Below are positions 9,867 through 62,196 of a stretch of 64,000 nt of DNA, piece after piece. The stretch's first letter is position 1, and each line of letters starts with the position of its first letter. Both the position numbers and the translations under genes were made by a program. Below the pieces are notes generated by a model. The model did no database searches. It saw only the letters and a program-made list of their open reading frames with translations, and was not told the DNA's origin. This DNA is from Brachycybe producta. Its lineage: Eukaryota; Arthropoda; Diplopoda; Playtdesmida; Andrognathidae. Location: NCBI GenBank assembly GCA_036925085.1, contig JAUPFP010000018.1:4008885-4072884 (forward strand), read 5' to 3'.

Positions 9867-10028
9867 ACCGTTTTCAGTGCTGAAATGGCAGAATATACTC
9901 CTGATGCAATTATTGAAGGACGTGGGGGACTCCTTTCTTTACTGCTTATTCCAATAATTATTATTGGCGCCGTCTTGATATCTTGCTGTTTGTGTGTGTT
10001 GTCAGGGTTTACTTGCGGCGTCAGCTAA
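9867..10028 (+). CDS. Exon 2 of small membrane protein gene, copy 1
   Basis: This is the second exon of a tiny gene family I do not recognise from known proteins. It follows a strong acceptor, TTTCTATTCCTTACAG, and reads in phase 0: TVFSAEMAEYTPDAIIEGR, then a hydrophobic helix LLIPIIIIGAVLISCCLCV, then a short tail and stop TAA. It encodes 53 residues, nearly identical to copy 2 (39495) and clearly homologous to copy 3 (47110), which differs by a whole-codon indel. No matching exon 1 is visible upstream in this window; the duplication boundary at about 9219 falls inside the intron. It may therefore be an orphan exon unless exon 1 lies beyond the gypsy element. Confidence 0.65.
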   Translation, partial: TVFSAEMAEYTPDAIIEGRGGLLSLLLIPIIIIGAVLISCCLCVLSGFTCGVS

Positions 10029-22235: not shown

Positions 22236-22237
22236 TT

Positions 22238-28954: not shown

Positions 28955-30350
28955 CATGATGTATGGTGCTATATTTAAAAAAATATTGCGAATTTGTTTG
29001 GCTCACTTTGCTTGCCACTAAAATAAATATATATACTCTATATTGGAAGGGTAACAAAGTGACGATGCCGGTTATTGCCGACCTATAATTTTTTAGCCAG
29101 TACGTGCCTGAATACTAGCGGCGGCAGCGACTAATGGTGTTTATACCATTCATACTTATCAATGCTATGCAGCTATTGTGGCAACCTGGTCTGCTCAATT
29201 TTAATTTTTTTGATTGAGCAGACGAATTCCCTATGGTGGTCTACCAGACAGCTACAGTAGGCTGTTGGGACGGACGCCATTTTGGTGCCAGCAGGCCTCT
29301 CACCATGAAGTCTATGGGTGAGAGGTCAGATGTGACCTCTGTCCCCTCCAGGAGGAGTTGCCTAGAGGTTTCCTGTGGCCTGGTCAGCCACAGGATCTGG
29401 GCAGTTGGTTGTAGGCTGTGGATGTGACCAGACCTGTGGGTGGAGGTCAGGGTGACCTCCACTGTCCGGCATTTGGGTCTTTGCTTTTGTTTTTGCCTTT
29501 GGCCTTTTACTTTGTATAAAGTGCTTCTGGGCTGGTCAAACGGGCCAGCCCTTTTCTGTAAATAACGTCATATAATCATCAATCGCCGTAAGTGTAATTA
29601 AACACATTTATTGCATCTTACTTTGTGTGTCGTGTTTTTCTTGGGAGTTTACCGCGGGAGGGTGGGTTGCCGGGCTGGGTTCAATGCCACCGTCCACCTC
29701 CGGCCTCTTTCGGCCGGTATATCGTGTCGGCTTGCGGTGAAACAGGAGTTCCACCGCGATATTCTTGGAGAGGCAGCGTTTTACCGTCGTGTATCACCGT
29801 CGAGGGAAGCTCCGCGCCAACACCACCCAAGGGGTGCACCGTGGGAGAGGCGGCTGCGGGTACGGTCCCATCCCCGTCGTCGGAGCTCTGTCACCGGTAA
29901 GTAAGGGCGTTTTGCGTTTTTATTTACCGCGCATTGTAACGGTCCGGCGGGACGTTACACTAGGTTGCACATATCGATATATCGAATATATTATCGTTTC
30001 GTTCGTATGGTAGTTTTTGTAACAAAAGCAACCAAAAAATAATTGAATTCGGCAGCCGCCAGTCCCATGCCAGCGGCGAGTGGCAGCGGTTAAAAAAAAA
30101 GGCCAGGTGGCAAGCGGCAGCATTTACAGCTTCAAAAACACTGGTGGCGGCATTTTCGCCTCTATGCCACACAGCTCTACACATGGCTCCCAAGTTTATT
30201 GAAAAGATGTATTGAGTTTAATATGAGTAGGCAATACATGTATTTCATTAAGGAATTATGGAAATGTGAGGTGACAACACTTGCCACTAAATAAAGGGGG
30301 CGACTAGTTTTTAGAAATTTAAAATGTCGTTGTTTGGTGAGTCACAAGAT
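28955..30350 (+). repeat. Segmental duplication copy A, right part
   Basis: Collinear with 41824-42325 (GTAACAAAGTGACGATGCCG, TACTAGCGGCGGCAGCGACT, CACATATCGATATATCGAAT, GCCGCCAGTCCCATGCCAGC), interrupted by a solo LTR at 29177-29959. No gene is seen. Confidence 0.8.
29177..29959 (+). mobile_element. Solo LTR (family 1)
   Basis: Starts TGTGGCAACCTGG, ends GGGACGTTACA, 783 bp, closely related to 4646-5438. Flanks are CTAT (29173-29176) and CTAG (29960-29963), a 4-bp TSD with one change. The empty counterpart is at about 41972 in copy B. Confidence 0.85.
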
Positions 30351-30766: not shown

Positions 30767-31157
30767 ACCTAAGTCAATGTATTGAGATACTAAGTCAATG
30801 TATTGCGATACTAAGTCAATATATAGAGAAACTAAGTCAATATATAGAGAAACTAAGTCAATATATAGAGAAACTAAGTCAATATATAGAGAAACTAAGT
30901 CAATATATGGAGATACTAAGTCAATATATGGAGATACTAAGTCAATACATGGAGAAACTAAGTCAATACATGGAGATACTAAGTCAATATATGGAGATAC
31001 TAAGTCAATACATGGAGATACTAAGTCAATACATGGAGATACTACGTCAATATATGGAGATACTACGTCAATATATGGAGATACTACGTCAATATATGGA
31101 GATACTACGTCAATATATGGAGATACAAAGTCAATATATGGAGATACCAAGTCAACG
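30767..31157. repeat. 21-bp minisatellite, about 18 copies
   Basis: The unit is CTAAGTCAATATATGGAGATA with graded variants (ATGTATTGCG, ATATAGAGAA, TACATGGAGA, CTACGTCA). Because 21 is a multiple of 3 and the unit lacks stops, both strands are open (for example 30798-31172 plus, 30764-31150 minus). Those frames are not genes. Confidence 0.95.
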
Positions 31158-32866: not shown

Positions 32867-32989
32867 CATTATTTCCCCCCATTCTGTATACGTGTCATTA
32901 GTGACAATGATCTACAAAAAATCAAACAGTAAAAAGATTTGGACAGGTGGCTAGTTGATTTTACTTTATAATCTTGTCATTATTAAAAT

Positions 32990-33205
32990 ATGAAAACAAA
33001 GTAAATAAACAAGCTAGTGTATAATAATTCAGTAGCCAACTCATATTCCAAAGCCTAAATGGTGATTCACATCCGCTCAATCCTTACGACCCCCATATAT
33101 AACCAACTATGAGTTAGTCAAATTAATTAAATAGATTATCCGATTTTGGCAATACACATCTATGCTCATCCGAATCCTTTTTTTGAATCAAAAATGCAAT
33201 TCAAT
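32990..33205 (+). promoter_or_regulatory. Promoter and 5' leader of small gene copy 2
   Basis: About 210 bp are conserved with 43890-44094 (AACAAGCTAG-GTATAATAAT, AAAGCCTAAATGGT-ATTCAC, CCAACTATGAGT, TTAAATAGATTATC, CATCCGAATC). A TATA-like ATATATAA lies at 33095-33102, about 100 nt before the ATG. Conservation of both promoter and signal-peptide exon argues that the unit is a gene. Confidence 0.5.
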
Positions 33206-33253
33206 ATGATTTTCAAAGTTATGGCATTCTGTCTTTTGATTGTCTTCATTCAG
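33206..33253 (+). CDS. Exon 1 (signal peptide) of small membrane protein gene, copy 2
   Basis: Sixteen codons, MIFKVMAFCLLIVFIQ, form a classic short signal peptide core. They end exactly at a splice donor CAG|GTTAGT in phase 0. The matching exon 2 is at 39495-39662, giving an intron of about 6.2 kb filled with repeats. The intron's 3' part (38960-39360) is homologous to the intron of copy 3 (44200-44820), which links the two exons. The predicted protein is 71 residues: signal peptide, about 20-residue acidic segment, one membrane helix, Cys-rich tail. I do not recognise the family. Confidence 0.6.
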
Positions 33254-33305
33254 GTTAGTAAAATTTAAAAAAAATACTGCAATTGGGGTTGTATTTTACG
33301 CTTAT

Positions 33306-33306
33306 C

Positions 33307-33339
<33 letters not shown>

Positions 33340-33440
33340 AATTAGCAATAGTAGTAGTAGTAGTAGTAGTAGTAGTAATAGTAGTAGTTGTAGTAGTAGT
33401 AGTAGTAGTTGTATTAGTACAGTAGTAGTAATAATAATAA
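33306..33440. repeat. (TAG)n microsatellite
   Basis: An imperfect trinucleotide array with TAA and TTG interruptions, in intron 1 of small gene copy 2. The poly-Ser/Val and poly-Leu frames across it are artefacts. Confidence 0.95.
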
Positions 33441-33672
33441 TAACAATAATGACGAAAAGTTTGCATAAATCTAATTGCAAAAAAAGAATAATCACAGAGT
33501 CATACCCTCTTTTTGAGTACAACTGTGATACTATTTAAGTGTTAAATGTGCAAAAATAGCTCGTTTAGCTAAACAAATAAAGTTGCATATAAGATAAAGA
33601 TGGCATAAAATTGTTTAAAAATACACTTTGTCGGCAAAATAACCAAACAAAGAGTTTCTATATAGGCAACAC

Positions 33673-34318
33673 TAGGGCTTCCATTATCTGTTTTATCGTT
33701 ACCGGTAAACCGGTATTACCAGTCTATTTTGTTACATCGGTATTACCGGTAAATTGACTCTTCATTACCGTTTTTTTTGGTAAAAATTGTTTAAATTAAT
33801 TTGGTTAAAAGAATTGACCAATATTTAAGAACCACTGAGTTTAAAATTAAAATTTTCACATAATTATGCGTAGAAACCAATAGTTTTTTTTTTTCAAAGA
33901 GTGAAGTCAAAAAAATGGTATTCGTATGCACTTGTAACCGTTTACGAATGTCGCAGTGAGGTCCTAACGTAAATGTTCGTACAGTTGAAATGCTTTCTGT
34001 GCATTATATATACCGTACATACTTAGGTGCTAAATTAACGCAACATCTTCATTTGTTACGCTTGGGACATATAAAACAATTATTATGTATAAAAATATTT
34101 AAAAAAAAAGTGACATTCAGAAAAAAAAAAATAAAAAAAATTGGAATTTGCATCCAGACAAAATAGATAAATTTATTTAGAAATAGAAAAATTTACATTC
34201 ATTTTAATTTTTTTTTTAACATGGGAAATTTTTTTTTCAATTTTTGAGGTTTTTTTTACAGCACTTATTAAAGTTTTTGCTTTAAAGTGCTATAAAGTGA
34301 CTGGTAATGGAAACCCTA
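33673..34318. mobile_element. MITE with TAGGG-TTCCATTA ends
   Basis: Left end TAGGGCTTCCATTATC and right end TAATGGAAACCCTA are inverted repeats about 646 bp apart. The left inner part has several ACCGGTAA / TTACCGGT palindromes. The ends suggest a hAT-like non-autonomous element, but flanking 8-mers do not match. Confidence 0.45.
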
Positions 34319-34435
34319 TTCTACGCTGAATTGTATTCATTGTGCAATTTCTATTTCTGCTTCTAATGAGTATATGACTAGAAAATGCAAAATATTTGAA
34401 AACATTTGGTACCAGTATATGCTTACAATGCATTA

Positions 34436-35838
34436 TGTAACACCCAGTAACTCATGATCCCGCCAAAACCATAGCCTGTGTAACGACCCGATTCCGTCGC
34501 CACAACACTCAGGCAAAACTGCCCCGTCTCACCTGCCGCTGAACTCCCTTGCGACGGGATCCTAGCGCTGGCTAGCCCTCCTCTTGTCTGTCCGTGTTCA
34601 CGGGTAGCGCTGGACGAGAGTTCCTCCCGCAAGTCGATGGTGAATTACCGCCAACCGAACTGAGAATCCACGGTAAATCCCCGATGGATCTTACTGAGGA
34701 TACAGCGTGAAGCACCGGCCAAAAATGGCGGTTACGGGACGGCGTTGGTGACTCTGTTCCCCCACCAAAAACCCCCACTCTCCCATGGTGACTTCCCCAA
34801 TTATCAATACAAATAATTAACACGGACACAGTGTGCAGTTAAATAAAAACAATAATATATTTATTCAAATGAAAGACTTACTGAATTAATAGCAATACTC
34901 TGCTGGACATCTTGTCCAGCAGGTAAACACATGAATCACCCAATAAGGCACAATCAGCAAACAAAGAAGAGGATGATGGTGGCCATCTTGGCCACCCACA
35001 ATACAAAGAACACAACCAAACACATGCACTCAGCATGACGGGTCAAACACACTGCCCAGTATATAATGGCCGCCGCCATTATATACCCCCAGGCTGCTCC
35101 ACCTGGGGGTTGGCAGTGACATTTGCTGGCCTTTCTGTCGTCTGCCGGGCAGCCTACTTTAGCCAGCCTAGCAGACGACAACAGGAGATTTAGTTCTGCT
35201 CCCAGAAGGAACAAAACTGGGTCGTTACACCTGGGTGGTAAACAACTCCTGCTTGTCCCTCCCTCCCTCTCTGACTCATACTTCTGACTCATACTGAAGT
35301 GGCAGATTGATACTCTTAGGACCATGGTTGGTCACTTGGACCTGGTTGCACCTCGTAGGTGTACACAGGCCCAAGGTATAAAAAGACCATGTTACTCTTT
35401 GTTCTTCATCCACTCTTAATCAACTTTTGTACTACGTTACATTTTATATCCGTATCACATCATGGGCCCGTGGACGCACCTTTGATCATATATATTCATT
35501 CTTGTAATGTTCATGTTTCTCGACAAGAATGAATAAAAGTGTTTACAATAAGAAACTACGTTGTCTATCGTCTGGAAACTAATCCTTCTCTAGGCAAGCC
35601 GGAGACACCACAAGGCAAGGAGGCATCGAGATCCTGAGGAGTCAGTGAGGAGCAACAACATCTTCCAACAGAGAAGGAAGATGTACATCAATGGCGGCCT
35701 GAAGAAATGGTCACCATCCTTCTGTGCAGATTACACCCTTATACAGAAGGATGATCACAATCCATCACCATCCGGTTACTTCTATAGCTCGAATCTTCTC
35801 TGTGCAGTCACCTTCATGAGGTCGCCATAAAGCTCACA
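34436..35838 (+). mobile_element. Solo LTR (21550 family) with nested LTR
   Basis: Starts TGTAACACCCAG and ends AAAGCTCACA, with 4-bp duplications ATTA (34432-34435 and 35839-35842). It is interrupted by another LTR at 34479-35229. The distal part keeps the TATA-box hairpin (35335-35385) and the GAATGAATAAAAGTG polyadenylation region. Confidence 0.85.
34479..35229 (-). mobile_element. Nested solo LTR (family 3)
   Basis: 751 bp with inverted ends TGTAACGACCC / GGGTCGTTACA and a 4-bp TSD CCTG (34475-34478, 35230-35233). On the minus strand it has a TATA-like GGTATATAATGG and then AATAAATATA, so it is oriented leftward. Confidence 0.8.
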
Positions 35839-35871
35839 ATTAAATGTTGATTCTGACAAAATACCTTTTCA

Positions 35872-36852
35872 TGGGGTGTAGGACATTTGCCCTAAAGGAA
35901 CATTTGCCGTAAAGCTATTTAACCTAAAGGGACATTTTGCCCTAAAACCATTTAACCTAAAGATACATCTTGCCCTAAAACCATTTGACCTAAAGATACA
36001 TCTTGCCCTAAAACCATTTGACCTAAAGCGACATCTGCCCTAAAACCATTTGTCCTAAATGGACATCTGCCCTAAAACAATGTCCTAAATGGACATCTGC
36101 CCTAAAACAATGTCCTAAATGGACATCTGCCCTAAAACAATGTCCTAAATGGACATCTGCCCTAAAACAATGTCCTAAATGGACATCTGCCCTAAAACAA
36201 TGTCCTAAATGGACATCTGCCCTAAAACAATTTGTCCTAAATGGACATCTGCCCTAAAACAATTTGTCCTAAAGCGACATCTGCCCTAAAACAATTTGTC
36301 CTAAAGGGACATTTGCCCTAAAACAATTTGCCCTAAAGGGACACTTGCCCTAAAGGGACACTTGCCCTAAAGGGACACTTGCCCTAAAGGGACACTTGCC
36401 CTAAAGGGACACTTGCCCTAAAGGGACACTTGCCCTAAAAGGACATTTGCTCTAAAGGGACATTTGCCATAAAGGGACACTTGCCCTAAAGGGACACTTG
36501 CCCTAAAAGGACATTTGCTCTAAAGGGACATTTGCCATAAAGGGACACTTGCCCTAAAGGGACACTTGCCCTAAAGGGACACTTGCCCTAAAAGGACATT
36601 TGCTCTAAAGGGACATTTGCCATAAAGGGACACTTGCCCTAAAACCACTCGCCCTAATCAGTATTGTAAATTTTGTCATTTGGCATTTTTGTGCGCCTGT
36701 GGCATGCAGAACCTATTTAACATATACTTCATCGAAAGACACTAAACCGTATGAAAAGAGAGAAGAAAAAACAATTTTGGGCAAATGTTCTATAGGGAAA
36801 ACGGTTTTAGGACAAATGTCCCTTTATAGCAAATGTCTATATCCCGTTTTCA
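35872..36852. repeat. Fold-back element with minisatellite arms (CCCTAAA type)
   Basis: The left arm is an array of GACATTTGCCCTAAAACCATT-like units. It includes five to six near-perfect 30-bp copies (36066-36235, TGTCCTAAATGGACATCTGC) and a run of 17-bp GGGACACTTGCCCTAAA units (36340-36650). After a spacer with ACTAAACCGTATGAAAAGAG the right arm is a short inverted array ending AAATGTCTATATCCCG. Related elements: 37372, 53103, 57505. Confidence 0.8.
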
Positions 36853-37371
36853 TGAAGTAATACTCTTCAAATAAAGCAATTAACAACCAAATTACGCCAA
36901 AAAATTAGAACTATTTAAGGCATAAGGATATGGTAACCCTATCCTTCAGGCGCGACTGTGACTCACGAGTAACGACCACAACTGCAGTCTTTTGAATCAA
37001 TAGTCACGTTCACGCCCCACCGTGATGCATCTTATGCGCCTCGCGACCGAGATGAGGGAGAGTTTCCTGATGCTAGTATCGTCTGTAGGTAGACAAAGCA
37101 AGAAAACAACAACCATAAATAAACTCGGCATATAAACCCTTCTAAAATCGCGTCTGCGTCTACACTGCACTCTGACCAGTATAGACGCAGACACACAATA
37201 GAGACGCCAACTGCACACTCTGGTGGCCGAACGCATTTGCATCAAAAGAACTACTCAGATAAAGAACTATTGAATCCAGTTCGGTCTCTGGTCGCAGTTG
37301 CCGTTCGCACTTCACAGACACACCTGAAGAATGCTATCTTTAGAAGATCTCGACCTCCCGAACAAAATACA
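36853..37371. other. Spacer between two minisatellite fold-backs
   Basis: A GC-richer stretch (36950-37330) with a minus-strand frame at 36997-37245 that has no recognisable domain. Nothing else is seen. Confidence 0.35.
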
Positions 37372-37885
37372 CCTTATCTCGGGTTATAGACACCTGCCCT
37401 AAAGAGACATCACCTAAAGCCATTTGCCCTAAAAGAGTATATTTGCCCTAAAACCATTTGACAAAAAGGGCCATTTGCCCTAAAACCACTTGGCCAAAAG
37501 CGACATTTGTTCTAAAACAACCTACCCTAAAAGGATATTTGCCCTAAAACAACTTGCAATTAAAGAATATTTGCCCTGAAACCACTTTTTCTCTCTTTTC
37601 ATACAGTTTAGTGTCTTTCGGTGCAGTATGTTAAATGGGGTCTGCACACCGCAAGCACACAAATAATGCCAAATGACATTTAGTGTTGATTACTGCAATG
37701 TCCCTTTAGGGCAAATGTCCCTTTAGAGCAAATAATTTTAGGGCAAATGTTCCTTTAGAACAAATGATTTTAGGGCAAGTGTCTTTTGGGCAAATGTCCC
37801 TTTTGGACACATGGTGTTATGGCAAATATTTTTAGGGCAAGTGTTCATAGGTCAAATGTCTGTAGGACAAATGTCACACCATCTT
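37372..37885. repeat. Second minisatellite fold-back element
   Basis: The left array starts TCGGGTTATAGACACCTGCC; the centre is the inverse of the 36700 spacer (TTTTCATACAGTTTAGTGTC); the right array is inverted (CCCTTTAGGGCAAATG) and ends AGGACAAATGTCACACC. It has the same architecture as 35872-36852 in the opposite orientation. Confidence 0.75.
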
Positions 37886-38377
37886 TTCTTAAGCATGGGA
37901 GATCTATTTTGAGATGTCTTCTGTTTAAAAATGTGCATTGTGCATGATTTGAAAGAAAGAGCAATCAATTCAAGATGTCACACATAAAATTTCATTCATT
38001 AGGTTTGTTTTTGTTTAATCGATATTTTTAAACTAATTTGCATATTAATTTGCATACTGATTGTTAATATTGCATGAACCTAAGGACAAAGTGAGTTGTA
38101 TTCACAGGTGACACTAAACAAGCAACAAATTGAAGAAGTGCCAAATTTGATGGGCTGCGCCACCCGCCGCTCCCCCCGCCCAGTCCCCATGCAACAATAT
38201 TAATTTAACTAAACTTAACCTTCCAACTTTTTTCTACTGTTGTTCCGACTTTTCCAACCATTGTTCCGAGCCGTTCTGCCGTTCATCAAAATAGAACCCA
38301 CACCCCTAAAACCAAGGGGGTAGGGTTCGAGTCATTTTCGGATTCTATCAGTCAAATAATTTTTCACTGGCCACTTC

Positions 38378-38580
38378 ACAGGCATGTGTGCGCAGCTTCA
38401 GAATTTTTTTGGTCTTGCCCTTTTATGAGCATTAAACCAAATATTAACCAATTAGAAACAAATAAAAAGGGCGGTGCATGTGACATCAGACCCAGTAACA
38501 AACCAAATATAAATTCATGACGCGGGGGGGGGGCAAAGGGCGGGGTCAAAGAAAGTCTGAAGATGTGCACAGATGAATGT
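38378..38580. mobile_element. Mutator-like MITE, family B
   Basis: Orthologous-by-duplication to 9401-9593 and retaining the same 9-bp TSD GGCCACTTC (38369-38377, 38581-38589). A G-run (38523-38533) is private to this copy. Confidence 0.8.
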
Positions 38581-38606
38581 GGCCACTTCTTCTTCCAGAC
38601 CGCCCT

Positions 38607-38800
38607 ACATGCATCGGTAGACAGCTTCAGAATTGCTTTGGCCTCGCCCTTTTATGTGCGTCATCAATTTCTAATTGGTTTGTTACTGGATCTGGTGTCA
38701 CATGCCCCGCCCTTTTTATTTCTAATTGGTTGATATTTGGTCTGAAGGTCATAAAAGGGCGGAGTCAAGGAAATTCTGCAGCTGTTTAGAGGTGTCTGTG
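38607..38800. mobile_element. Mutator-like MITE, family B variant
   Basis: A palindromic element with ACAGCTTCAGAATTGCTTTGG and GGAAATTCTGCAGCTGT arms, absent at the equivalent place in copy A (about 9617). Boundaries are approximate. Confidence 0.6.
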
Positions 38801-39494
38801 ACCTCCTTTGCCTACTAATGCTGAGAAATAGCATGAATCACGAGGACGTCTATAGGCGAAGGCCAAGCCCAGGCCTTTTTACCCATGCATTGGCATGCAA
38901 AATATTCATTTTCATGTTTTGCCTTTATCATCCTTTAAGAGCCTAGATCCACGTCCATCTTGTTGTTTTGAGCAGACGACAACAAGACAAATGAGTGTTC
39001 TTATATGGTGTTAACTAAAACTGCAAGAAATCGCCTCACAATCGCTCAATTAAAATACAGTAAAGTGCAAAATGCAATAAAAAGTATTGTTCTTTAATTG
39101 CTCGATTTAAATAATTTTTGAACAAGGTTCAAAATCGTTGGTTTTATTTTACCCCATGTTAAATCCCATTTGATCAAAAACCGTCCCACAAACATTTGAA
39201 AAAAAAAAAATCGTTAAAAACGATTTAGAAAAATAACAAAAAAATTAGCACGTGCATTAACATACATCAGTATGAAACCTGGAGAAAAACGTTAAAAAAA
39301 ACGTTTTTCAATCAAAAACGATCGCAGCACCTACATTTTGAACTAAACACTGCATCTAATCTCTTAAAACAATACTGGGTGATCGCATCTGGCAACAGTT
39401 GCTTCTTTTGTTGCAATTAAGCGTTTTAATTGAGCACTTTGAATTTGCAAAATAAAAACAAACAAATTTTTTTACTTGTTTCTATTCCTTACAG

Positions 39495-39662
39495 ACCGTT
39501 TTCAGTGCTGAAATGGCAGAATATACTCCTGATGCAATTATTGAAGGACGTGGGGGCCTCCTTTCTTTACTGCTTATTCCAATAATTATTATTGGCGCAA
39601 TCTTGATATCTTGCTGTTTGTGTCTATGTGCAGGGTGTAGCGGCAGCGTCAGCTCAGCCTGA
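39495..39662 (+). CDS. Exon 2 of small membrane protein gene, copy 2
   Basis: After acceptor TTTCTATTCCTTACAG the phase-0 frame encodes 55 residues and a TGA stop: an acidic segment (SAEMAEYTPDAIIEGRG), a hydrophobic helix (LLSLLLIPIIIIGAILIS), then CCLCLCAGC and a Ser-rich end. The Cys cluster directly after the helix is the kind of site that is palmitoylated in many membrane proteins (inference). It is almost identical to copy 1 (9867). It joins in frame to exon 1 at 33206. Confidence 0.65.
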   Translation, partial: TVFSAEMAEYTPDAIIEGRGGLLSLLLIPIIIIGAILISCCLCLCAGCSGSVSSA

Positions 39663-39819
39663 TGTAATTGCTTCGCGATTTTTTGTCTTTCAATTATGCA
39701 CCATAAACACATGCAAAAACAAAATCGTAAAAAAGTTAATCACGGTACTATGTGTACTAAAATGGTTTACGGAAAATATATACTCAGCACTAACTGAAAA
39801 ATGTGTCAACTAAAACACT

Positions 39820-39825
39820 AATAAA
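39820..39825 (+). terminator. Polyadenylation signal of small gene copy 2
   Basis: AATAAA 158 nt after the stop codon, in the conserved CACTAATAAACGTC context. Confidence 0.55.
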
Positions 39826-40603
39826 CGTCTTTCCTAATATGCAAGGATAAGATAAGCTGCAATGTAATTTTTGTTGGTTGAAATTTATTGCAGTAATTAC
39901 GTAATTATTATTTCGGGTTGAATTTGCATAACCTTGAACATAAATAATATTGAGCATAAAATTGACATTGAAGGAAATTCAACTCGACTATATCTGCAAC
40001 ACAGAATAAAAAGTTAAACAGAAGAGAAAACTCGAGCATTTTTCGTTGACAGAGTTTCTTCTGCGCATGTGCGGCGGCAACAATGACTTTTGTTTGATGT
40101 CTCTCTTATTTTTGGGCGCCGCCATCTTGAAACAGGGTAATGAAAAAGATCTCCCTCCTCAAGTGAGTTAATCAATGCACTTGAATTCATTTGACATGAA
40201 CGCGAATTGAACGTCTATACTCATACTTGATTCCACTCAGATGATAAGCTGACATGAATTATTATTACGTAATTATTATTATATCGCGTTCATGTCAAAT
40301 CAAATCAAGTGAGTTGACCAACTTACTTGGCTCGTGTAAAAACAGCTATTTAGATCATATACCGATTCTGTCCTAGTTCGATCAAGTAACCGGTTAAACT
40401 AAAACTTCCTGATAAGTTCTATGTTAAAGATACCAACTCTGCCGCCAGTTTAAAGATGGCGACTTCCTGCTTGACTTCCTGTCAACAGCAACATCAAAGG
40501 ATCCGACAGAGAATTTCCCTTCTGTATAACTTCTTATTCTTTGCCTGTACTACTATACCCTTAGCCCATGTGTAGGGGTACACGGAGCATGAGCCATAGG
40601 AGC

Positions 40604-40730
40604 ACAAGCAGTTGTGCCTAGCACTAGAATTTTTTTGCCCCACCCTTTTATGAGCGTCATCAATTTCTAATTGGTTTGTTACTTGGTGTGACGTCATAAA
40701 AGGGCGGGGAAAACAAAATTCTAGTGCTGG
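40604..40730. mobile_element. Mutator-like MITE, family C, right end deleted
   Basis: The same insertion as 11204-11344 (ACAAGCAGTTGTGCC, CACTAGAATTTT), but the right terminal repeat after GTGCTGGG is missing. Confidence 0.7.
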
Positions 40731-41035
40731 GAGCTAGCTGCTAAAAGACAGTGGATCTAAGACGACTCAACAGTTTATCCCAGGAATGTCATGTTTCACA
40801 ATGAGATTTGCCCAAAGTCACGTGACAAGTACCTGTGTCATGTTGGTCCCAAAGTTTATTGCAGGTGCCCCATCTACCTCTATTTACGGTTTAAAGAGAC
40901 CATTTACTTCTAGAAACTTCTACTTAAAATTATAAAGAGACTTACCTTTTGATTGTAAAAATGATGTTTATTTTTTTAAAAGTACCTTCTCAATTAAAAA
41001 ACTTCAAAATGAATCGGTATTTGGTAGAAACTTGC

Positions 41036-41240
41036 ACAGGCAGTTAGAAATAGGGGAGAACTTCAGTTGCCTCCGCCTTGTTATGACGACCGGCAACTTC
41101 TAATTGGCTGGCCATGTAGTCTGACGTTGAAAAGGGCGGAGTATGTGACGACAGACTACATACCCAGCCAATTAGAAGTTGCCCGTCGTCATAACAAGGG
41201 CGGAGCCAACTGAAGTTGTGACCGATTTCTAACTGCCTGT
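41036..41240. mobile_element. Mutator-like MITE, family A, intact with 9-bp TSD
   Basis: 205 bp, starts ACAGGCAGTTAGAAAT and ends ATTTCTAACTGCCTGT, fully palindromic. Flanks are perfect GAAACTTGC repeats (41027-41035, 41241-41249); copy A has the single unoccupied GAAACTTGC at 11523-11531. Confidence 0.9.
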
Positions 41241-42560
41241 GAAACTTGCAATTTCAGATAGATGCGCCACCAAACAACATGAATACGAACTAAAACACAA
41301 AAAAGTATACTCCTCTACTCGAAAAATATCGACATATCGATATTTAAGCTTTTCGCTCACATTACTTTTAACTCCCTATTCAAATATATGTATTCTCTAT
41401 TGATTTAATATTTGAATTATACCACCAGCCACGTGGCCACAGGTGTGCGCCATAACATATGGATCGTCGGCGGTGGCGGACGAGGGTAAATACTAGCAGG
41501 AACGTACTGGCCCGGGTGGCAAGATGGCAAATGCCACTTTACTTTTATACAATGTCGAGTGATGCAAGTAATATGTGTTTAGATATACGTTTTAATAAAA
41601 CTGTAACACCTACATTTTTGTAATTTAAGCTAATTTTTAACAGCACATTAAAATATACAATTCTAACTATACTGTATTACAAGAAAATTAAAAAAGTTAT
41701 AGGCTAAACAACCCAATAGGAGCCTAACAAAATTGGAGATGTTCTTGAAACTGTGAGTTAAAAGTAAATTTACATTTACAAAAATTTAAAAACTACTTCG
41801 ATTTTATACGTGTTTTCATGTATCATGATGTATGGTGCTATATTGGAAGGGTAACGAAGTGACGATGCCAGATATTGCCGACCTAGAATTTTGTAGCCAG
41901 TACATGCCTGAATACTAGCGACGGCGGCAACTAACGGCGTTCATACGGTTCATACTTATCAATGCCACGCAGCGAGGGATGCACATATCGATATATCGAA
42001 TGGTAGTTTTTGTAACAAAAGCAACCAAAAAATAATTGAATACGGCAGCCGCCAGTCCCAAGCCAGTGGCGAAGTGGTAGCGGTTTTTTTAAAAAAAAAA
42101 AAGGCCAGGCAGCAAGTGGCGGCATTTTCAACTTCAAAAACACCAGCTTCCACACGTGGCTCTTGAGTTGATTGGAAAGATGTATTGAGTTTAATATGAC
42201 TTGGGAATAAATGTATTTGATTAAGGAATTATGGAAATGTGAGGTGACAACATTTGCCACCAAATTGAGGGTGAGACTAGTTTTTAGTTTTTAGAAATTT
42301 AAAATGGCGTTGTTTGGTGACTAATAAAAGTCGTTTCATTTTTAATTTTTTTTTATAAAATTTTCATGACTTATTTTTAATTTTAAAAATAACTTTGGCA
42401 ATTGTTGGGAAAGTCTTGAACAGTCTTCAACAAAAAAATGTTTGGGGGTAATGGTCTCTCTAAGTTACAGTAATTCAATTTTTAAAGAAACAACACATCG
42501 AAAAACACAAAGCTAGAGATACGGCTGCAAAGCTGACAGCAGGTCATGTAATGACACATG

Positions 42561-43127
42561 TATAACAATGTAGAGCTCTTGTTACGGGGCTCAGGTGTAG
42601 AATTTCTTAGCTCGAGCAGATACCGCTTTTCACTAAAAGACTTTATTGTAATACAACCCGAGTCCAATCGGTGCCGGGTCGTTCTCCAGGATATTTCGTG
42701 TTATCGACGTTGCGTCTGAAAGGAATAGTTGAACAGGCGAGATGAATGCAGATTGACGTTGATACTTATTTTATTACACTCAATCATCGAAATGTAATAG
42801 AACAGGGAAGAGTTACGGGTGTGGCGTGCTTTAGCCACTGGACCATTGAATGAGTTGATTTACTTCATGTTTCGATATCAGAGAATGGACCCCGAGTGTC
42901 TCGAAACATAGTCTTTTATACCTAGGGCCTGTGTACATCCCTGTAGGTGTACCCATGCCCCATGGACCATGCGTCGACGGGTAGCCATCCGCCAATACCG
43001 GAACCAGGATGTGTCTCGAAGCTTTGGGGTTTCCAAGAGGGAGGGAAGGGACAGAAATACGTCCCTTACATCCCCAGGGACCCCCAGGCTAGGGGAAGGG
43101 TAAAAAGATGAAATACAGGGTGTTACA
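42561..43127 (-). mobile_element. Diverged solo LTR (21550 family), minus strand
   Basis: The right edge CAGGGTGTTACA is the inverse of TGTAACACCCTG. Inside, on the minus strand, are CCTAGGTATAAAAGAC and a GTAATAAAAT signal. CATG flanks both proposed ends (42557-42560, 43128-43131); the inner end has lost its canonical TG, so that boundary is tentative. Confidence 0.6.
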
Positions 43128-43288
43128 CATGTGACAGCTCAATACTCATATAGATCCAGGAACCTTAATTTGAACCTATCTACAAGCAAAAATGGCGGAA
43201 ATTGCTTTAACACTAGATCTATGTATTGCCTAACCTATATAACAACAACCTATGTTAAAATCAACATTCTCTTTATACATGTGTTTAA

Positions 43289-43494
43289 ACAGGCAATTAG
43301 AAATCGGGACATACAGAAGTTGGCTCCGCCCTTTTTATAAAGACAGGCAACTTGTAATTGGTTGGTTATGTAGTCTGACGTCACATGCTCGGCCCTTTTC
43401 AACGTCGAACCCCGCAACAAACCAATTAGAAGTTGCTGGTCGTCATAAAAAGCTCGGAGACAACTTCTGTTTGTCTCGATTTCTAATTGCCTGT
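43289..43494. mobile_element. Mutator-like MITE, family A, intact with 9-bp TSD
   Basis: 206 bp, starts ACAGGCAATTAGAAATCGGG and ends GATTTCTAATTGCCTGT. Flanks are perfect TGTGTTTAA repeats (43280-43288, 43495-43503). Confidence 0.9.
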
Positions 43495-43889
43495 TGTGTT
43501 TAATGTTTGCCCGGAAAACGATTTGCATACTCGTATTCATCTCAACAAGATCATTCTAACAACCTGGGCTTTTATTTTATTTGGCGAAGGTCTACTATTC
43601 TTATTATGTCATACATTTTCAGAATAATAAAAATTGAAATTTGGAAATATTTCTTCTCTCAATTTGTTCCATCCGTATATAAAAATCCTAAAATTTAGCC
43701 CGTTTTTGTTAGTACATCGTCATGTAAAATTCCAATGCTTGGCAATAATGATTTCAAAAATGAACCAATTTGTAAATGAGTTTGAAACAGATGGCAAAAT
43801 GTTCTGCTTGTGTTTTTTTAGTTGATATGAGTTCTGTGATATAGTGTTGACTTTATAAAGTTGTCCATTATTTATATAAAAACGATAAA

Positions 43890-44094
43890 TGAAATAAACA
43901 AGCTAGAGTATAATAATTCGGTGACGAACTCATTTTTCTAAAGCCTAAATGGTAATTCACATCCGGTACGGATTAGAATCAACATAAAACCAACTATGAG
44001 TCAGTCCCATAATAAATTAAATAGATTATCATTTCAATAGCACGCATCTATTCATCCGAATCTGTTGTTCGATCGAAAAGAGGCCTAATTCAAT
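43890..44094 (+). promoter_or_regulatory. Promoter and 5' leader of small gene copy 3
   Basis: Homologous to 32990-33205 up to the ATG. The TATA-like box of copy 2 is here ACATAAAACC, so expression strength may differ. Confidence 0.45.
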
Positions 44095-44142
44095 ATGATT
44101 TTCAAAGTTATTGCATTCGGACTTTTGGTTTTCTTCATTCAG
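44095..44142 (+). CDS. Exon 1 (signal peptide) of small membrane protein gene, copy 3
   Basis: Sixteen codons, MIFKVIAFGLLVFFIQ, end at donor CAG|GTTAGT in phase 0. Exon 2 lies at 47110-47268 (intron about 3.0 kb). Compared with copy 2, the changes are conservative hydrophobic substitutions, as expected for a signal peptide under selection. The predicted product is 68 residues. Confidence 0.6.
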
Positions 44143-44859
44143 GTTAGTTAAAAGTTTCGAAAATTACTTCAACTTGGATCTAATTTAAGAGCTGTTGCTT
44201 TGAGCAGACAAGGAGACAAATGAGTGTTACTATAGAGTGTTACTAAACTTGCAAGAAATCGCCTCACAATCGCTCAATTAAAATACAGGAAAGCGCAAAA
44301 TGCAATAAAAAGTATTGTTCTTTACGTGCTCAATTTATATATTTTTTGAAAAGGTCCTTCTATTTTTAAACAACGTTCAAAACCGTTCGTTTTTTTATTC
44401 CATTTTAAATCCCATTGGATCAAAAACCGTCCCACAAACATTTGAAAAATTCTCGTTAAAAAAGATCTAGAAGAATAACAAAATAATTAGCACATACTTT
44501 CATGTATTGGCTTCACGATGTTTCCTTTTCATAAATTTTGAAACGGTCCTTCTATTTTTAATAACGTTTAAAATCGTACGTTTTTTAACGCCATGTTAAA
44601 TCCCGTAGGGCCAAAAAACCATTCCATAAACATTTGAAAAACTCTCGTATAAAATGACTTAGAACAATAACAAAAAATTAGCACGTGTCTGAATGTATTG
44701 GCTTCACGATGTTTCCTTTTTACAAGGTTAACACGTGAACTTATTTTTATATTAATTATTATGTGACTTCGAACCTGGAAAAAAAACGTTAAAAAAAAAC
44801 TTTTTCAATCAACAACGACCGCAGGGCCTAAATTCGGAGAAATTTTGAATTAAACGCTA
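44143..44859 (+). other. Intron of small gene copy 3, paralogous to intron of copy 2
   Basis: 44200-44820 matches 38960-39360 (AAGAAATCGCCTCACAATCG, AATGCAATAAAAAGTATTG) with an internal duplication (TAGCACGT / GGCTTCACGATGTTTCCTTT at 44488-44530 and 44681-44725). No gene is seen. Confidence 0.6.
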
Positions 44860-45570
44860 TAAAAGGCTACATCGCAAAATCACTTCGAAAAAAAAATTCC
44901 GCAAAGAGCACTAGCATCGTTTATCTATTGAGCCCATAGACACAATGTTAAGGAAAAAATGTTCATTTTTAAAATAAACAGTAGTCGCCGCAATATGTTT
45001 ATTTTTCATATTTAAAGTTGTCCAATATTAAATTTTCGAGTGATAGAATTACAAAAAAATTGGTAAGTGCGGTTATATTTTTAAAAACTATTTCAAAATC
45101 GCGAATTTCTAACTCTTATGTTAAACTCCATTGAGTACGCCCAAATACGAAAAAACATCCATTAAAATGCTCGTAAAAATGCATTTAAATAATTTTTAAA
45201 AACGACAGTGAAGCTAACACATTGGCGCACGTGCTGATTTTTTTTCTGTTTTTTTTTATTTTATGAGCATTTTAATGGATATAAATATTTGTTTACGAGC
45301 TCGTACTCAATGTTAGAGTTAGAAATTCGCGATTTTTTCGTTATTCTATCACTCGATCAGCATATAACTAAGGTGCACATGGCACTTTGAAAACTTAATA
45401 TTGGACAACTTTAAATATGAAAAAATAAACATATTGCCACGACTGTGTATTTTAAAAAATTACATTTTTTCTTTAACATTGGGTGTAATTGCTCAATAGA
45501 AAAACGATGCCAGCGCTCTTTGCGAAGATTTTTCGAAATAATTTTGTGATGCAGCCTCTCAAAAAACAAT
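44860..45570. repeat. Long fold-back repeat, family D, most complete copy
   Basis: Arms of about 330 bp (44870-45180 against 45250-45565) around a centre with ACATTGGCGCACGTGCTGAT. Arm landmarks are CTATTGAGCCCATAGA, AAAGTTGTCCAATATTAA and TCCATTGAGTACGCCCAAA. Confidence 0.8.
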
Positions 45571-46599
45571 CTTAAGACACACTTAACTATGAAAGCCGCA
45601 GAAAATATAATAAAAGTTAATTGACAAAATTCTGCTGAATAAAAGTGAAAATGTAGGAAATATTTGAAACAGGAAAATAATTTCACTGGCTGCGTGTACA
45701 TTACATTTTTTCAAAACATTTTTGCCCACAATTTTAAAATTGCAAAATATGACACGGTTATGGTGGGAGAAAAATTAAAATAAAACCAAGTGGGTGGGGT
45801 TCTAGACATTTACGGATTTTCTTTGGGCCAGGTAAATATTTTTTTTTTGGGCCACGTTTTCTCCCAGTGCTCCCTAGTCCTGCCTATATATATATAAAGC
45901 CGAGACACATCATAGCGCCGTCTATTGATGAATGACCACTATTTAAGAGCTGTCATCTACCTATGATATGAAACAATACAGCAGGTTCCCCTGAAAACCC
46001 CTCTTATGAATCCTAGTTTGAATACAGACTATACTTCAAATTTCTAATATAGACAGTCTTTTTCTGGTCCAGGTGGTAACGTGGCAAATGCCGCCTGCTC
46101 ATGTCCTTCTATGCGCCAATGTACTGAACGTTCACTTTCATACATCGCTGACTGGTGCTCGTAACTTGCCAGCAATGGCGCAACGGGCTAAGAGGGCTGA
46201 CGCCCCCAGGACTTAAAATCTCTCGTGGCCCTTCATATTTCTCCCCTGGAGATATCAAATACTTATTTAAAATTTAATTAGCCTCTCTCAGACCAGAATC
46301 CAAGTTGTGCTACTACATGCCAGCATTAGCCTCTCGAAATTGCGAGGGTACCAGGATGTTTTGTAAACTTCGAAGCCCCCAGATGCCTTTCTAAATTTGA
46401 AAGCCCCCGAGAGCTTCTCCACACTCTGTAGCCACAAAGCCTCTCAAAACTAAGAAAACTGGAACTGTAAATCCCTCAGAAACTCTCATAATTGGGTGGC
46501 CCTCGTGAGCCTCTCGTAACTCAAATTTAAATTTATGTTTACCAAAAGTTATATAACAGGAAGCTTTTCTTGCATTCATACGAGTACTATAGGAACTTA
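45571..46599. other. No gene seen
   Basis: Mixed sequence within intron 1 of copy 3, with a T-run at 45839-45848 and a short (AT)n at 45888. Small frames have no recognisable domains. Confidence 0.4.
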
Positions 46600-47031
46600 A
46601 GAAGAGTTAGCTTTGAACCCGGATTGCCTGAGTGGCCTGTTGTTGAGCCGGCAGGGTCGTTTCTCTTTGACACACCTACATCTTCTTGACGAGAAATAAT
46701 AAGTAGACAAGATGGCAAAATGATTGTAGAACACTTGTAATTTATCACGAATCCACAAAGTTGCAATAATGGATTACAATAACATTAATGAGACATTCTG
46801 GGTGCCTGGCACTTTATACCCATGGGTGCCGGTATACCTTGAGAGGTAAACCGGCACCCAAGTTTCCGGACACCTTTCCCTAGTGTCATCCGCCTATCGC
46901 CATGCGGGGAAGGATGGAGTGTCCACCAACAGGTAAAGAGGTGAAGGAGGATGGAGGAGGATGAGGTCAATGAACTCGACTGAACACTCAAATATGGAGA
47001 CCTGTGACACCATAATAAGTGTGGTGTCACA
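46600..47031 (-). mobile_element. LTR-like repeat with terminal hairpin, minus strand
   Basis: On the minus strand it begins TGTGACACCA, followed after 9 bases by TGGTGTCACA (47003-47031), a palindromic terminus. A GGGTATAAAGTGCC TATA box lies at about 46810. The left boundary is approximate and no TSD was confirmed. Confidence 0.4.
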
Positions 47032-47109
47032 GTTAACAACTATTTAAATTTCAAATGTGTTTACACTTTTTATGCTATTTTAAAAAAAAAATGTTTCTAT
47101 TCCTTACAG

Positions 47110-47268
47110 GCCGTAATCAGTGCTGAAATTGCTGAATATAATCCTGCTGCACTCGAAGGACGTTTGGGACCCCCTTCTATGCTGCTTATTCCATTAATTA
47201 TTGCGGGCGCCGGGCTAATATCGATTGTTTTGTGTGTATTTACAGTGTGTTCCCACCTAACACCATGA
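47110..47268 (+). CDS. Exon 2 of small membrane protein gene, copy 3
   Basis: Acceptor TTTCTATTCCTTACAG, phase 0, 52 residues and TGA: AVISAEIAEYNPAALEGR, then a membrane helix (MLLIPLIIAGAGLISIVLCV) and a short tail. It differs from copies 1 and 2 by many substitutions but keeps the frame, with a one-codon indel (AAL versus DAII), the Glu residues, EGR and the helix. That pattern is what purifying selection on a coding exon produces. The Cys-rich tail is reduced. The polyadenylation signal is AATAAG at about 47384. Confidence 0.65.
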   Translation, partial: AVISAEIAEYNPAALEGRLGPPSMLLIPLIIAGAGLISIVLCVFTVCSHLTP

Positions 47269-48006
47269 TGCCAAAAACAGGATTGTGACAAAGTTAATCA
47301 CAGTTATTACATGCACTCAAAATGGTTTATGGAAAATACTGTATACAGTCTGCACTGGCGTAAAATTTATCAATTAAAACACTAATAAGATATCTTGCAT
47401 AACATGGAAGTTAATTCATGTGACACCCAATACTAGTGGTGTCATGTCTGTACTACCTTGTATAAACTATAATTATAATTTCAGCTGTTTTAAACTTGTT
47501 CTTTGAGATTGATAACTATATCATCTCCCTTCCTTCCAGTTTATCTCTTTACATAGAAAATGGGTCGCTTTTATTTGCTTTTATTGCTGTTGATAATACA
47601 GATGTTTGTGACGTTGCTTGAGACATCACATGAAAGGATAATTCACCTATCCGTGTGCCCGTCTACAGCGTAACATTGGCATGGCCTGACACGCCTATAA
47701 AAGGCGGTAAATTAAAATATCAACCGTTCTTTAGTGATCGTTTTGGCATCTGGGTCCTATTTCATAAAGGTGTTACCTGAGTAATAGCCACCTTGATTTA
47801 GTAAAAGTGAGAAAAAGCTGTTTCATAATGAAAGTATTGTAGAAGAATCCCTTATACCACAGTCAACAGTGAATTACTAGGATACTTTTTCACAAAACAT
47901 TTTCTTATCATGGTAAAGTAAATATACTACAATTAACCTACCATAGAGTAAATAGCTTTTTTGTTTCATAAAATAAAGAACGGTATATTATTAAACCACA
48001 GTAAAG
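47269..48006. other. 3' flank of small gene copy 3, no other gene seen
   Basis: Contains a short palindrome TGACACC...GGTGTCA (47422-47445) like the LTR terminus at 47003, and AT-rich inverted motifs near 47760-48000. No long frame. Confidence 0.35.
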
Positions 48007-49185: not shown

Positions 49186-51519
49186 TCAAAACTTTACTTT
49201 ACAAGCCATGTCATCTACCCGCTCTTTTCGTATATTTGAAAATACATGTTGAAACCATTCCTGTTCTGTTGCCTTGGTACATATTTTCGCATGCCTCGCT
49301 TTCACCTTTAACCATCTAGTAACAGCTGGGTTAGGGTCAAATTCTGATAATGATGGCATGTTAACTCTGACATGAAGTGAATTTTTTATAGTTTGTGGTG
49401 CAAGAGAAGTACGATCATAGGTTTTCAAGATGTTATAGTAGGAAATAAGTCTCTCCACATCAGCACTGTGAGGCTTTGCCACAATTACACGTGAAACAGA
49501 GGTATAAAGTGTCTTCCACGAGTCAACTTGCAATAATAACTGCAAAACTTCAGGTTCAGATGTTCTTCTGCCATTGATTCGAACATCAGTGGCAGCTTCA
49601 CGGTAAGAAGCTGCAAAGTCCAATAACTGAAAATCTCGGCAGATCAGATTGTAGCACTTCCGTAAATCGTCATCAGATACATCATCACATATGCACTCTA
49701 ATGGTTTTAAATGGTCCCATTCAGTTGTGTCCAGCCTATACTTTAAAAAATTCACAATAGATTCAATAGTATCATTCCGAACTGCTTCATACATTCGCAA
49801 GTCACTTATATATGAATGATGATTTTTTCTGCGGCGTGATGGTTCATGAAGACTAACTCCATGAAACTGGTAGGTGTTCGAGGTTTTTTCTGGTTCCTGA
49901 TTTGGCATAGTCACAACAGACGAGTCAAATAGTTCTCCCCAACCACCAAGAAGATGAGATGTTTGTAAATCTTCAATAGAAGTCATCAACTTCTCACTAG
50001 CCACTTTAATGTCAAAAATGATAACTGTGTCACCTTGTATTTGCTTCTGGAAGCGTGTGTATAGAAATCCGAGGTCAGTCAAAAAACAAAGTAACTTAAG
50101 TTTGCTGTAATCGGTGAGCATCTTCAAATAGCCTTCTGCTACATGATCCTTTTCACTTGTTTTAAGTTGAAAATACTTAACTAACACTCGCCAGCTTCGA
50201 AGAACAGCAACAAGAAGAGAATACGTAAATTCTGTCCATCTCACCTCAAAGTATTTTGGGATGTGCAATACTGTCAGATTTTCTTCTTTGGCAATCTTTT
50301 TAAGTTCTTTTGTACGAAGTCCAGATTGATGGAAGTAGGTTGAAATTGCTACACAACTTTCGATTATCTTTTTGACCTCCACTACATTTGAGGTTAAACT
50401 TTCCCATGCCAGTGCACTACGATGTACAGCACACCAGATTTTCATGAATGGTGAATTTACATCATTTCTTTTTTTGTCGGCTTGTAGGTATGCCCATAGC
50501 CCTTTTCTTTCACCAGAATTTATACTGGCTCCATCCGTTACGATTGATGTCATAACAGGTATCAAATCATCCCATTTAATTAAGCGTTCCACTGCATGTT
50601 TCACAGCTTTATAATAGCCTTCTGCACCACGGTCATTTGGTTCTTCAAATCCAAGAAACAGTAGTTCAATATTTCCTTCTTTTGTTACAATTTTTGCCAT
50701 GACATGAATATTGTCAATTTGCATACGATCGACAGAACCATCTACTCGAAGTGAAACTGCCAGACAATTTTTCAATTTTTCTTGGATTCTGTTAATGTCT
50801 GCTTCAACAATGCATGATAGGAGCTCTTTGTGGCTTGTAGGATTCACATATTGAAGGACTCCTTCTTTTGGACAGTAAGTTTCAAAAGGTGTTGTTGAAT
50901 CAAATTCTTGACCTTTAAGATTTGCTACTTCACGTGATGGCCATGACCAGGCACTGAGAGTACCACGTTTTGCATCATTGTAGACAGTACAAATGAATCT
51001 GGCCATTTTGTTTGCAAGTTGACGGTTTTGAACTGATATTATCCGATTCAGGGGAGCTTCTTTTTCTTTCTCAACTTCAGATAATTTTTTCAAATGATCT
51101 ACTTGCATACATTGCAGGTGCATGGATGACATGAGATGCTTTTCCAAAAGTAACTTACGTGGCACTGTACCTGCTTCTGTGCAGATTGGTGGTACATGAT
51201 TCTTCTGCACAGCATGTATCATTACTGTTTTTTGATTTCTAAAGCAAATTGAACATCGCACCATTCTTCTTCCTTTGTTTTGAAGTTTTTCAAAACATTT
51301 GTCCAAGTTTAAAGATGGCTTTGGTTCCATTGCTGACACTCCAAAATCATCAGCATCAATTTCATCAGCAAAGTTTGAAGAATCACTACACCCGCTAGTA
51401 GAATTAGTTGTTGATGTGCTACTATCCTTACATATTTGTTTTCCAATTGATTCCAAATCATCTACAGCTTTTCTTTTACTAGCTGTGGCATTTGTGTTTT
51501 TTAACAACCATCGATCCAT
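49186..51519 (-). CDS. hAT-superfamily transposase, intact (777 aa)
   Basis: The enzyme cuts the element out and joins it to new sites, leaving 8-bp duplications. A zinc finger lies at residues 89-134 (C-x2-C ... H-x5-H, RCSICFRNQK and LEKHLMSSMH). The RNase H-like catalytic core shows LRVDGSVDR (Asp260), IVTDGASINSG (Asp329) and WCAVHRSAL (Cys363/His366). A long helical insertion follows, then the C-terminal hAT dimerisation region with SADVERLISYYNIL (Glu689). The three acidic residues match the expected D-D-E order. It resembles vertebrate KIAA1586/ZBED-type hAT-derived proteins in motif style (from general knowledge). No stops or frameshifts. The ATG at 51519 is the first in frame. Confidence 0.88.
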   Translation of the reverse strand: MDRWLLKNTNATASKRKAVDDLESIGKQICKDSSTSTTNSTSGCSDSSNFADEIDADDFGVSAMEPKPSLNLDKCFEKLQNKGRRMVRCSICFRNQKTVMIHAVQKNHVPPICTEAGTVPRKLLLEKHLMSSMHLQCMQVDHLKKLSEVEKEKEAPLNRIISVQNRQLANKMARFICTVYNDAKRGTLSAWSWPSREVANLKGQEFDSTTPFETYCPKEGVLQYVNPTSHKELLSCIVEADINRIQEKLKNCLAVSLRVDGSVDRMQIDNIHVMAKIVTKEGNIELLFLGFEEPNDRGAEGYYKAVKHAVERLIKWDDLIPVMTSIVTDGASINSGERKGLWAYLQADKKRNDVNSPFMKIWCAVHRSALAWESLTSNVVEVKKIIESCVAISTYFHQSGLRTKELKKIAKEENLTVLHIPKYFEVRWTEFTYSLLVAVLRSWRVLVKYFQLKTSEKDHVAEGYLKMLTDYSKLKLLCFLTDLGFLYTRFQKQIQGDTVIIFDIKVASEKLMTSIEDLQTSHLLGGWGELFDSSVVTMPNQEPEKTSNTYQFHGVSLHEPSRRRKNHHSYISDLRMYEAVRNDTIESIVNFLKYRLDTTEWDHLKPLECICDDVSDDDLRKCYNLICRDFQLLDFAASYREAATDVRINGRRTSEPEVLQLLLQVDSWKTLYTSVSRVIVAKPHSADVERLISYYNILKTYDRTSLAPQTIKNSLHVRVNMPSLSEFDPNPAVTRWLKVKARHAKICTKATEQEWFQHVFSNIRKERVDDMACKVKF

Positions 51520-51654
51520 TTCACTTAAAAGGTAAAATTGTTAATTAACCAAAAGTAAAAAAAGAAACTGCACACTCTTCAATTTCTTAATTTAAGTGCT
51601 GAAGCATGAAATGTGTTTTGGGAATGCCCCTCAACATCTAGAATGGGGTAATCA

Positions 51655-62142: not shown

Positions 62143-62196
62143 ATGATTTCCAAAACCACAATAATTACTTTGTCTATTTTGATTATCTTCATTCAG
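62143..62196 (+). CDS. Exon 1 (signal peptide) of small membrane protein gene, copy 4
   Basis: Eighteen codons, MISKTTIITLSILIIFIQ, end at TTCATTCAG|GTTAGT in phase 0, as in copies 2 and 3. The ATG context CAATATGATTTC is shared. It is the most diverged signal peptide yet keeps length class, hydrophobicity, phase and donor. Exon 2 is not in the remaining 1.8 kb, so it should lie to the right of this window if the gene is intact. Confidence 0.5.

Follow-up and report, generated by a model that had tools for sequence, protein, structure and literature searches.

Small glycosylphosphatidylinositol (GPI) proteins of the CD52 type have a signal peptide, a mature part of roughly a dozen residues, and a hydrophobic C-terminus, and are encoded by a small gene. 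CD52 is glycosylated and is not known to belong to a large cluster. Frog skin antimicrobial peptides are described in PMC7106915 as cationic, amphipathic, and charge-balanced with their propiece. For ant ectatotoxins, PMC12465672 reports that 24 clustered loci out of 36 have two coding exons and that the mean ratio of nonsynonymous to synonymous diversity (piN/piS) of the toxin genes is about 1. PMC7523956 attributes antibacterial, antifungal, or antiviral properties to 119 ozadene proteins. Among arthropods, millipedes have received little study. The locus considered here is a 64,000-nucleotide stretch of the millipede Brachycybe producta (the window: assembly GCA_036925085.1, contig JAUPFP010000018.1, hereafter C18, positions 4008885-4072884, plus strand; genome of 295.3 Mb in 442 contigs). 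It carries members of a cluster of short two-exon genes that almost certainly form a functional protein-coding family. With confidence a little short of even, the family is interpreted as tandemly expanded, small secretory-pathway prepropeptides whose hydrophobic product would act on membranes.

The first-pass annotation of this DNA saw only part of the family. Fifteen complete two-exon genes were assembled and 19 second exons were located in total, which points to at least 19 genes, all of them falling within one 0.73-Mb stretch of C18 (3.33-4.06 Mb). The window genes are termed W0, W1, and W2 (exon 2 at 9867, 39495, and 47110). Four exon 2s are without an assembled gene (L004, L005, L008, and L051), and two of the 19 are on the minus strand (L005 and L008). 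Whole-genome protein searches with eight members returned 40 rows, many repeated between searches, of which 39 lie in the cluster and the sole other, on contig C3, contains a stop and has an E-value of 1.6; these searches score the best candidates only, and distant copies elsewhere could escape them. An exon-2 profile of 13 peptides (nine from the searched DNA) was run in six frames over the window and 200 kb of C18 that include 10 kb of N (264 kb in total). It matched 14 open reading frames (ORFs) at E<=1.3e-6, five new and nine already in the profile, with the next match at E 0.4. Similarly, a weight matrix for the exon-1 end and donor, for which three window exon 1s and five from the 200 kb formed the training set, found 13 plus-strand sites in the 200 kb, 11 with an in-frame ATG (six of these absent from the training set), and three minus-strand sites, none with an ATG. 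In the 200 kb outside the window, 11 exon 1s and 11 exon 2s alternate perfectly, an arrangement that by our arithmetic a random order would give once in about 705,000. Pairwise identity drops with gene-order distance (r=-0.29; 7 of 5000 permutations were as low), and the closest relative is the adjacent gene for 10 of 19 exon 2s, as predicted by tandem duplication with some rearrangement.

The proteins are 62-103 aa long. In the assembled genes, the coding part of exon 1 is 45-57 bases long, ends on a whole codon, and encodes the bulk of the signal peptide. The signal peptide is interrupted by a phase-0 intron of 640 bp to 16.1 kb, and its last few residues, up to a predicted signal-cleavage-type site, come from exon 2. 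The site is A/E in all members but X10 (A/V). There follows an acidic segment of 13-18 residues with a net charge of -1 to -5, whose last residue is Arg. The remainder, 28-39 residues long (70 in B10), is hydrophobic and extends to the stop; its composition is 24% L, 16% I, 15% V, and 13% G. This order of signal-like exon 1, acidic segment, and hydrophobic stretch is the one already proposed in the first-pass annotation; the membrane helix proposed with it is one of two readings of the last part.

Selection differs along the protein. The main estimates of the ratio of nonsynonymous to synonymous divergence (dN/dS) come from Nei-Gojobori counts over five disjoint pairs that we chose (W0-W2, B3-B6, B4-B7, B8-B9, and B1-B2). 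For the signal and acidic part, dS is 0.46 and dN 0.17, giving a ratio of 0.37 (Fisher p=2e-5, in counts that take codons as independent). For the hydrophobic part, dS is 0.50, dN 0.52, and the ratio 1.04. The two parts differ in nonsynonymous divergence (p=3e-12) and not in synonymous divergence (p=0.79). Across three alignment settings and two pair sets, the ratio ranged over 0.40-0.56 for the signal, 0.29-0.47 for the acidic segment, and 0.81-1.04 for the hydrophobic part. A conserved putative prepro part thus precedes a faster-evolving region, as in classical cationic antimicrobial precursors, and the direction is the same in all six settings. A ratio near 1, one of the observations that by the first-pass annotation would refute its proposal, is seen in the hydrophobic part and not in the signal and acidic part taken together.

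Protein identities follow the same division. Mean pairwise identity among 14 proteins (91 pairs) is 0.47 for the signal against 0.20 when shuffled, 0.48 against 0.25 for the acidic segment, and 0.34 against 0.30 for the hydrophobic part, an excess of 0.27, 0.23, and 0.04, respectively. The hydrophobic part is barely above its shuffled value, and therefore its composition is kept more than its sequence. An internal control is provided by the signal peptide, which is likewise hydrophobic but changes far less. Of the nonsynonymous changes open to the hydrophobic part, a fraction of 0.71 leave it non-polar, so that a ratio near 1 there amounts to nearly free change within that limit, or to change above it. 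In simulated neutral decay of four genes, an open frame with a KD19 hydropathy of at least 2.6 persisted in 10% of trials at d=0.2, 1.8% at d=0.4, 0.25% at d=0.7, and 0.05% at d=1.0, whereas both properties are present in 14 of 14 measured genes.

These features could be joined as follows. The signal peptide would be removed. In the lumen, the acidic segment would act as a propiece, keeping the greasy segment in solution or inactive. Proteolysis just behind E-x-R would then release the hydrophobic peptide, which would insert into membranes and would most likely be secreted for host defence or as a gland product, its diversification being favoured. The conserved E-x-R ahead of the hydrophobic stretch suggests propeptide cleavage: Glu lies at -2 to -4 of the Arg in 18 of 19 exon 2s, matching the definition of the spider Processing Quadruplet Motif (PQM; PMC6832493). 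The chances for and against a cut at this point appear balanced. The overall layout matches that of known prepropeptide families in frogs, spiders, and ants. The evolutionary pattern is typical of defence-peptide precursors, and a defence-type role is proposed tentatively. The pattern is also consistent with the secreted or membrane effector suggested in the first-pass annotation. The most specific version, an effector array of nearly charge-free, very hydrophobic peptides freed by E-x-R processing and varying within a limit of greasiness, is rather unlikely; if true, it would define a class of membrane-acting secreted peptides that are neither cationic antimicrobial peptides nor Cys-knot toxins.

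Several observations weigh against the prepropeptide interpretation. The E-x-R motif was located by an expression that itself demands an acidic residue close ahead of the Arg, and L051, which has FDLR, is the one exon 2 lacking the Glu. Unambiguous PQMs are also rare outside spiders, according to PMC6832493. The presumed product is not cationic: charged residues are absent from the hydrophobic part in nine of 15 genes and number one or two in the remaining six, and its net charge ranges from -1 to +2, being 0 in 11 of the 15 and positive in two. Because it is uncharged, the product lacks a defining trait of classical antimicrobial peptides, which weakens the earlier "antimicrobial-type" label in that form. 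Balancing of the product's charge by the propiece was rejected, as the correlation is not significant (rho -0.37, p=0.18). When the second set of pairs is used, the ratios of the signal and acidic parts have bootstrap upper limits as high as 0.91-1.04. Whole-gene ratios are below 1 in 22 of 25 pairs, the others being B5-B6 (1.0), B3-B5 (1.1), and B3-B6 (1.54), and the prepro part of B3-B6 alone has a ratio of 1.15. Finally, a ratio near 1 in the hydrophobic part could also come from a constraint on composition only, as in any anchor.

The strongest rival is that the genes encode uncleaved single-pass mini-membrane proteins. Here, the signal would be removed, the acidic head would lie outside, the helix would span the membrane, Cys near the end would be lipid-modified, and the protein would regulate a membrane partner. 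This was the reading of the first-pass annotation itself, and it deserves serious weight as a minority view. The features of a type I membrane protein, a signal peptide and a hydrophobic segment of helix length, are present as judged by hydropathy, with a KD19 maximum of 2.66-3.78 in 14 of 14 genes that suits a membrane helix equally well. AlphaFold2, applied to W1 exon 2 with an input of three sequences (the window exon 2s), predicts one helix over residues 12-54 with a mean pLDDT of 69.8 (91 at residues 31-40); the model would suit a membrane helix and a helical peptide alike. Several members also have Cys-rich ends. However, the acidic head and Arg are conserved while the putative helix changes freely, and B10 has 70 hydrophobic residues. 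The positive-inside rule describes the charge bias of membrane proteins. The family runs counter to it, with K or R after the Arg motif in only four of 15 genes, none past residue 13 of the hydrophobic part, and the conserved Arg on the outer side. The "receptor tail" also suggested earlier found no support.

Two further readings treat the acidic segment as the product. In the first, the hydrophobic end would be the attachment signal of GPI-anchored, CD52-like acidic minipeptides, leaving a surface peptide of about 14 residues. The conserved acidic segment, the degenerate hydrophobic end that reaches the stop, and a Gly, Ala, or Ser directly after Arg in nine of 15 genes agree with it. However, the segments are very hydrophobic and long (KD19 up to 3.78; 70 residues in B10), and window genes have polar or Cys-rich tails. 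GPI anchoring is improbable for the family and possible, from sequence features, for members with plain hydrophobic ends. In the second, a signalling peptide of 13-18 residues would be freed after Arg, the hydrophobic end acting as a carrier anchor. The acidic segment has the lowest dN/dS and a conserved terminal Arg, but its end is without a dibasic or amidation signal in the sequence. One hormone is rarely encoded by a divergent 19-gene set, and this reading is very improbable. Least credible of all, to the point of near-dismissal, is a non-functional set of decaying duplicates or transposon-spread exons: repeats lie in and around the genes and one exon 1 (62143) is without a partner, but there are 15 open spliced frames with conserved sites, purifying selection acts on the prepro part, neutral simulation seldom keeps an open hydrophobic frame, and a transposon origin was rejected, as exon matches among the best candidates scored genome-wide are confined to C18 3.33-4.06 Mb, in contrast to a neighbouring repeat that is genome-wide.

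Searches for relatives gave no significant match. A protein-database search with W1 returned zero candidates, and an alignment of 13 members (the 14 genes assembled up to that point, minus B10) returned 4737 candidates, none at E<=10, from a database that includes uniref and nr. Pfam gave eight weak matches, each in one of the 13 members (best FtsK_4TM, E 0.0072), and no match for W1 or W2; the PDB gave a single match at E 0.42. Homology to known toxin precursors was accordingly not seen in the protein-database, Pfam, or PDB searches. Rfam and tRNA scans of the window gave no lead. No description of the family was found among the top-ranked literature matches, a coverage outside which subscription papers and unannotated genomes fall, and a literature search for the CD52 type returned nothing. 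The earlier description of an undescribed, two-exon, duplicating family thus holds.

Within the window, the two splices proposed earlier, for W1 and W2 (copies 1 and 2 of the first-pass annotation), were reproduced exactly, with products of 71 and 68 aa, and their signals are alike (donor CAG/GTTAGT, acceptor TTTCTATTCCTTACAG, phase 0). The CCLCLCAGC tail had been assigned to copy 2 and is actually in copy 1. An in-frame ATG at 33194, upstream of W1 exon 1, could add four residues. For the unpaired exon 1 at 62143, no partner exon 2 was found up to C18:4077000 (4,116 bases beyond the window end). The claim of paralogous upstream DNA is borne out: 331 bp of upstream DNA plus exon 1 of W2 match three places in the genome, all in the cluster, namely W2, W1, and one site left of the window that provides exon 1 of W0. 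As for a shared 3' signal, the flanks are indeed 76-78% alike over about 140 bp, the W2 flank aligning at the same level to W0 10094-10225; AATAAA or ATTAAA occurs within 400 bp past the stop in 13 of 14 genes, which in AT-rich DNA is weak evidence. Paralogy of the W1 and W2 introns was rejected, as the sequence they have in common is a genome-wide dispersed repeat with 2502 first-look candidates, of which 40 were scored and gave 58 matches. Coordinates are collected in the table.

Table. Family exons and associated sequence at the locus (window positions unless a contig is given)
Feature	Position	Strand	Basis or remark
W0 exon 1	C18:4002560-4002607		About 6.3 kb left of window; W0 intron 16,143 bp
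W0 exon 2 including stop	9867..10028	+	Third window gene, overlooked by first-pass annotation
W1 upstream region, paralogous to the W2 one (78% over region plus exon 1)	32960..33205	+	
W1 exon 1, bulk of signal peptide, MIFKVMAFCLLIVFIQ	33206..33253	+	Sequence
Dispersed repeat in W1 intron, outside gene proper; also in W2 intron (44193-44493)	38961..39251	+	
W1 exon 2 including stop: signal end, acidic segment, E-G-R, hydrophobic stretch, Cys-rich tail	39495..39662	+	
W1 3' flank, alignable to W2 47272-47410 at 76-78%	39714..39845	+	
W2 upstream region; with exon 1, three genome matches, all in cluster	43847..44094	+	
W2 exon 1, MIFKVIAFGLLVFFIQ	44095..44142	+	Sequence
W2 exon 2 including stop	47110..47268	+	Sequence
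Unpaired exon 1, MISKTTIITLSILIIFIQ, donor GTTAGT	62143..62196	+	Overlooked by first-pass annotation

The W0 and W1 exon 2s differ chiefly at their ends. Their first 120 bases have just three differing sites, and their last 43 coding bases have 11, about three times the level of intron and 3' flank (11/43 against 49/641; p=6e-4). Synonymous divergence is raised as well (dS 0.27 from codon 51 to the end), and because of this gene conversion or a local mutation cluster suits the tail equally. Positive selection was therefore rejected as its clear cause.

The window holds other repeats and reading frames. Retroelement remains lie at 3615-4148 and around (1-5400), one ORF matching the RVT_1 reverse transcriptase family at E 5.5e-10, and 4646-5438 is repeated at 29177-29959 with 78% identity. 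A 700-bp direct repeat (21550-22249 and 28269-28969, 98.9% identity) brackets about 6 kb with a 754-codon open frame (25601-27865) that has no Pfam match. A 784-codon open frame at 49186-51540 on the minus strand has no Pfam match at E<=10; by eye, we take it to resemble a hAT-type transposase-derived protein. Tandem arrays lie at 30769-31155 (21-bp unit, 18.4 copies, 95%) and 51653-51762 (16-bp unit, 6.9 copies, 100%). Satellite-like arrays of a GGACATTTGCCCTAAAG-type unit occur in both orientations at 35881-36643 and 37441-37875, both in the W1 intron, and at 57889-57949. Elsewhere in the assembly, contig C442 (15,359 bp) carries COX1, for which the invertebrate mitochondrial code (AGA as Ser, ATA as Met) gives a good reading. 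With the best 8000 database candidates scored, its top match is Abacion (Diplopoda, 90%), followed by Antrokoreana (Diplopoda, 89%) and six further millipedes at 87-88%; a house centipede (87%) and insects (86%) come next. COX1 thus most likely places the genome among millipedes, and an ascidian origin was rejected on the code and these matches. Further copies of COX1, almost complete or in fragments, lie on contigs C1 (12697416-12698753) and C17 (about 3.33 and 4.00-4.03 Mb); these large-contig copies are either nuclear insertions of mitochondrial DNA or artefacts of assembly.

Prepro-type selection combined with an uncharged product, in a clustered family, would widen the view of membrane-acting secreted peptides. 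If its members are mini-membrane proteins instead, the array would represent fast turnover of membrane micropeptides. In our judgement, annotation pipelines may well miss such short genes split by introns of 0.6-16 kb, and the pairing of exon 1 and exon 2 signals could therefore be used on other genomes.

Among described systems, CD52 resembles the family in its signal peptide, short mature part, and hydrophobic C-terminus; no sequence match between them was found. Spider venom precursors with a PQM, as outlined in PMC6832493, share the signal and an acidic propeptide whose terminal Arg has Glu at -2 to -4, followed by the product. However, the spider products are cationic or Cys-rich, whereas those of the millipede would be low-charge hydrophobic stretches, and their cleavage is predicted. 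Frog skin antimicrobial precursors (temporin, brevinin, and palustrin; PMC7106915) likewise have a conserved signal, an acidic propiece, and a hypervariable C-terminal peptide, and form a multigene family. They belong to another phylum and gave no sequence match to the millipede proteins, whose product is nearly uncharged and whose charge balance is not significant. Finally, the ant ectatotoxin (aculeatoxin) clusters, as described in PMC12465672, are an arthropod case of tandem duplication together with transposable elements, in which the signal and propeptide are better kept. In the ants, exon 1 encodes signal and propeptide; in the millipede, the intron lies within the signal peptide and everything beyond it is in exon 2.

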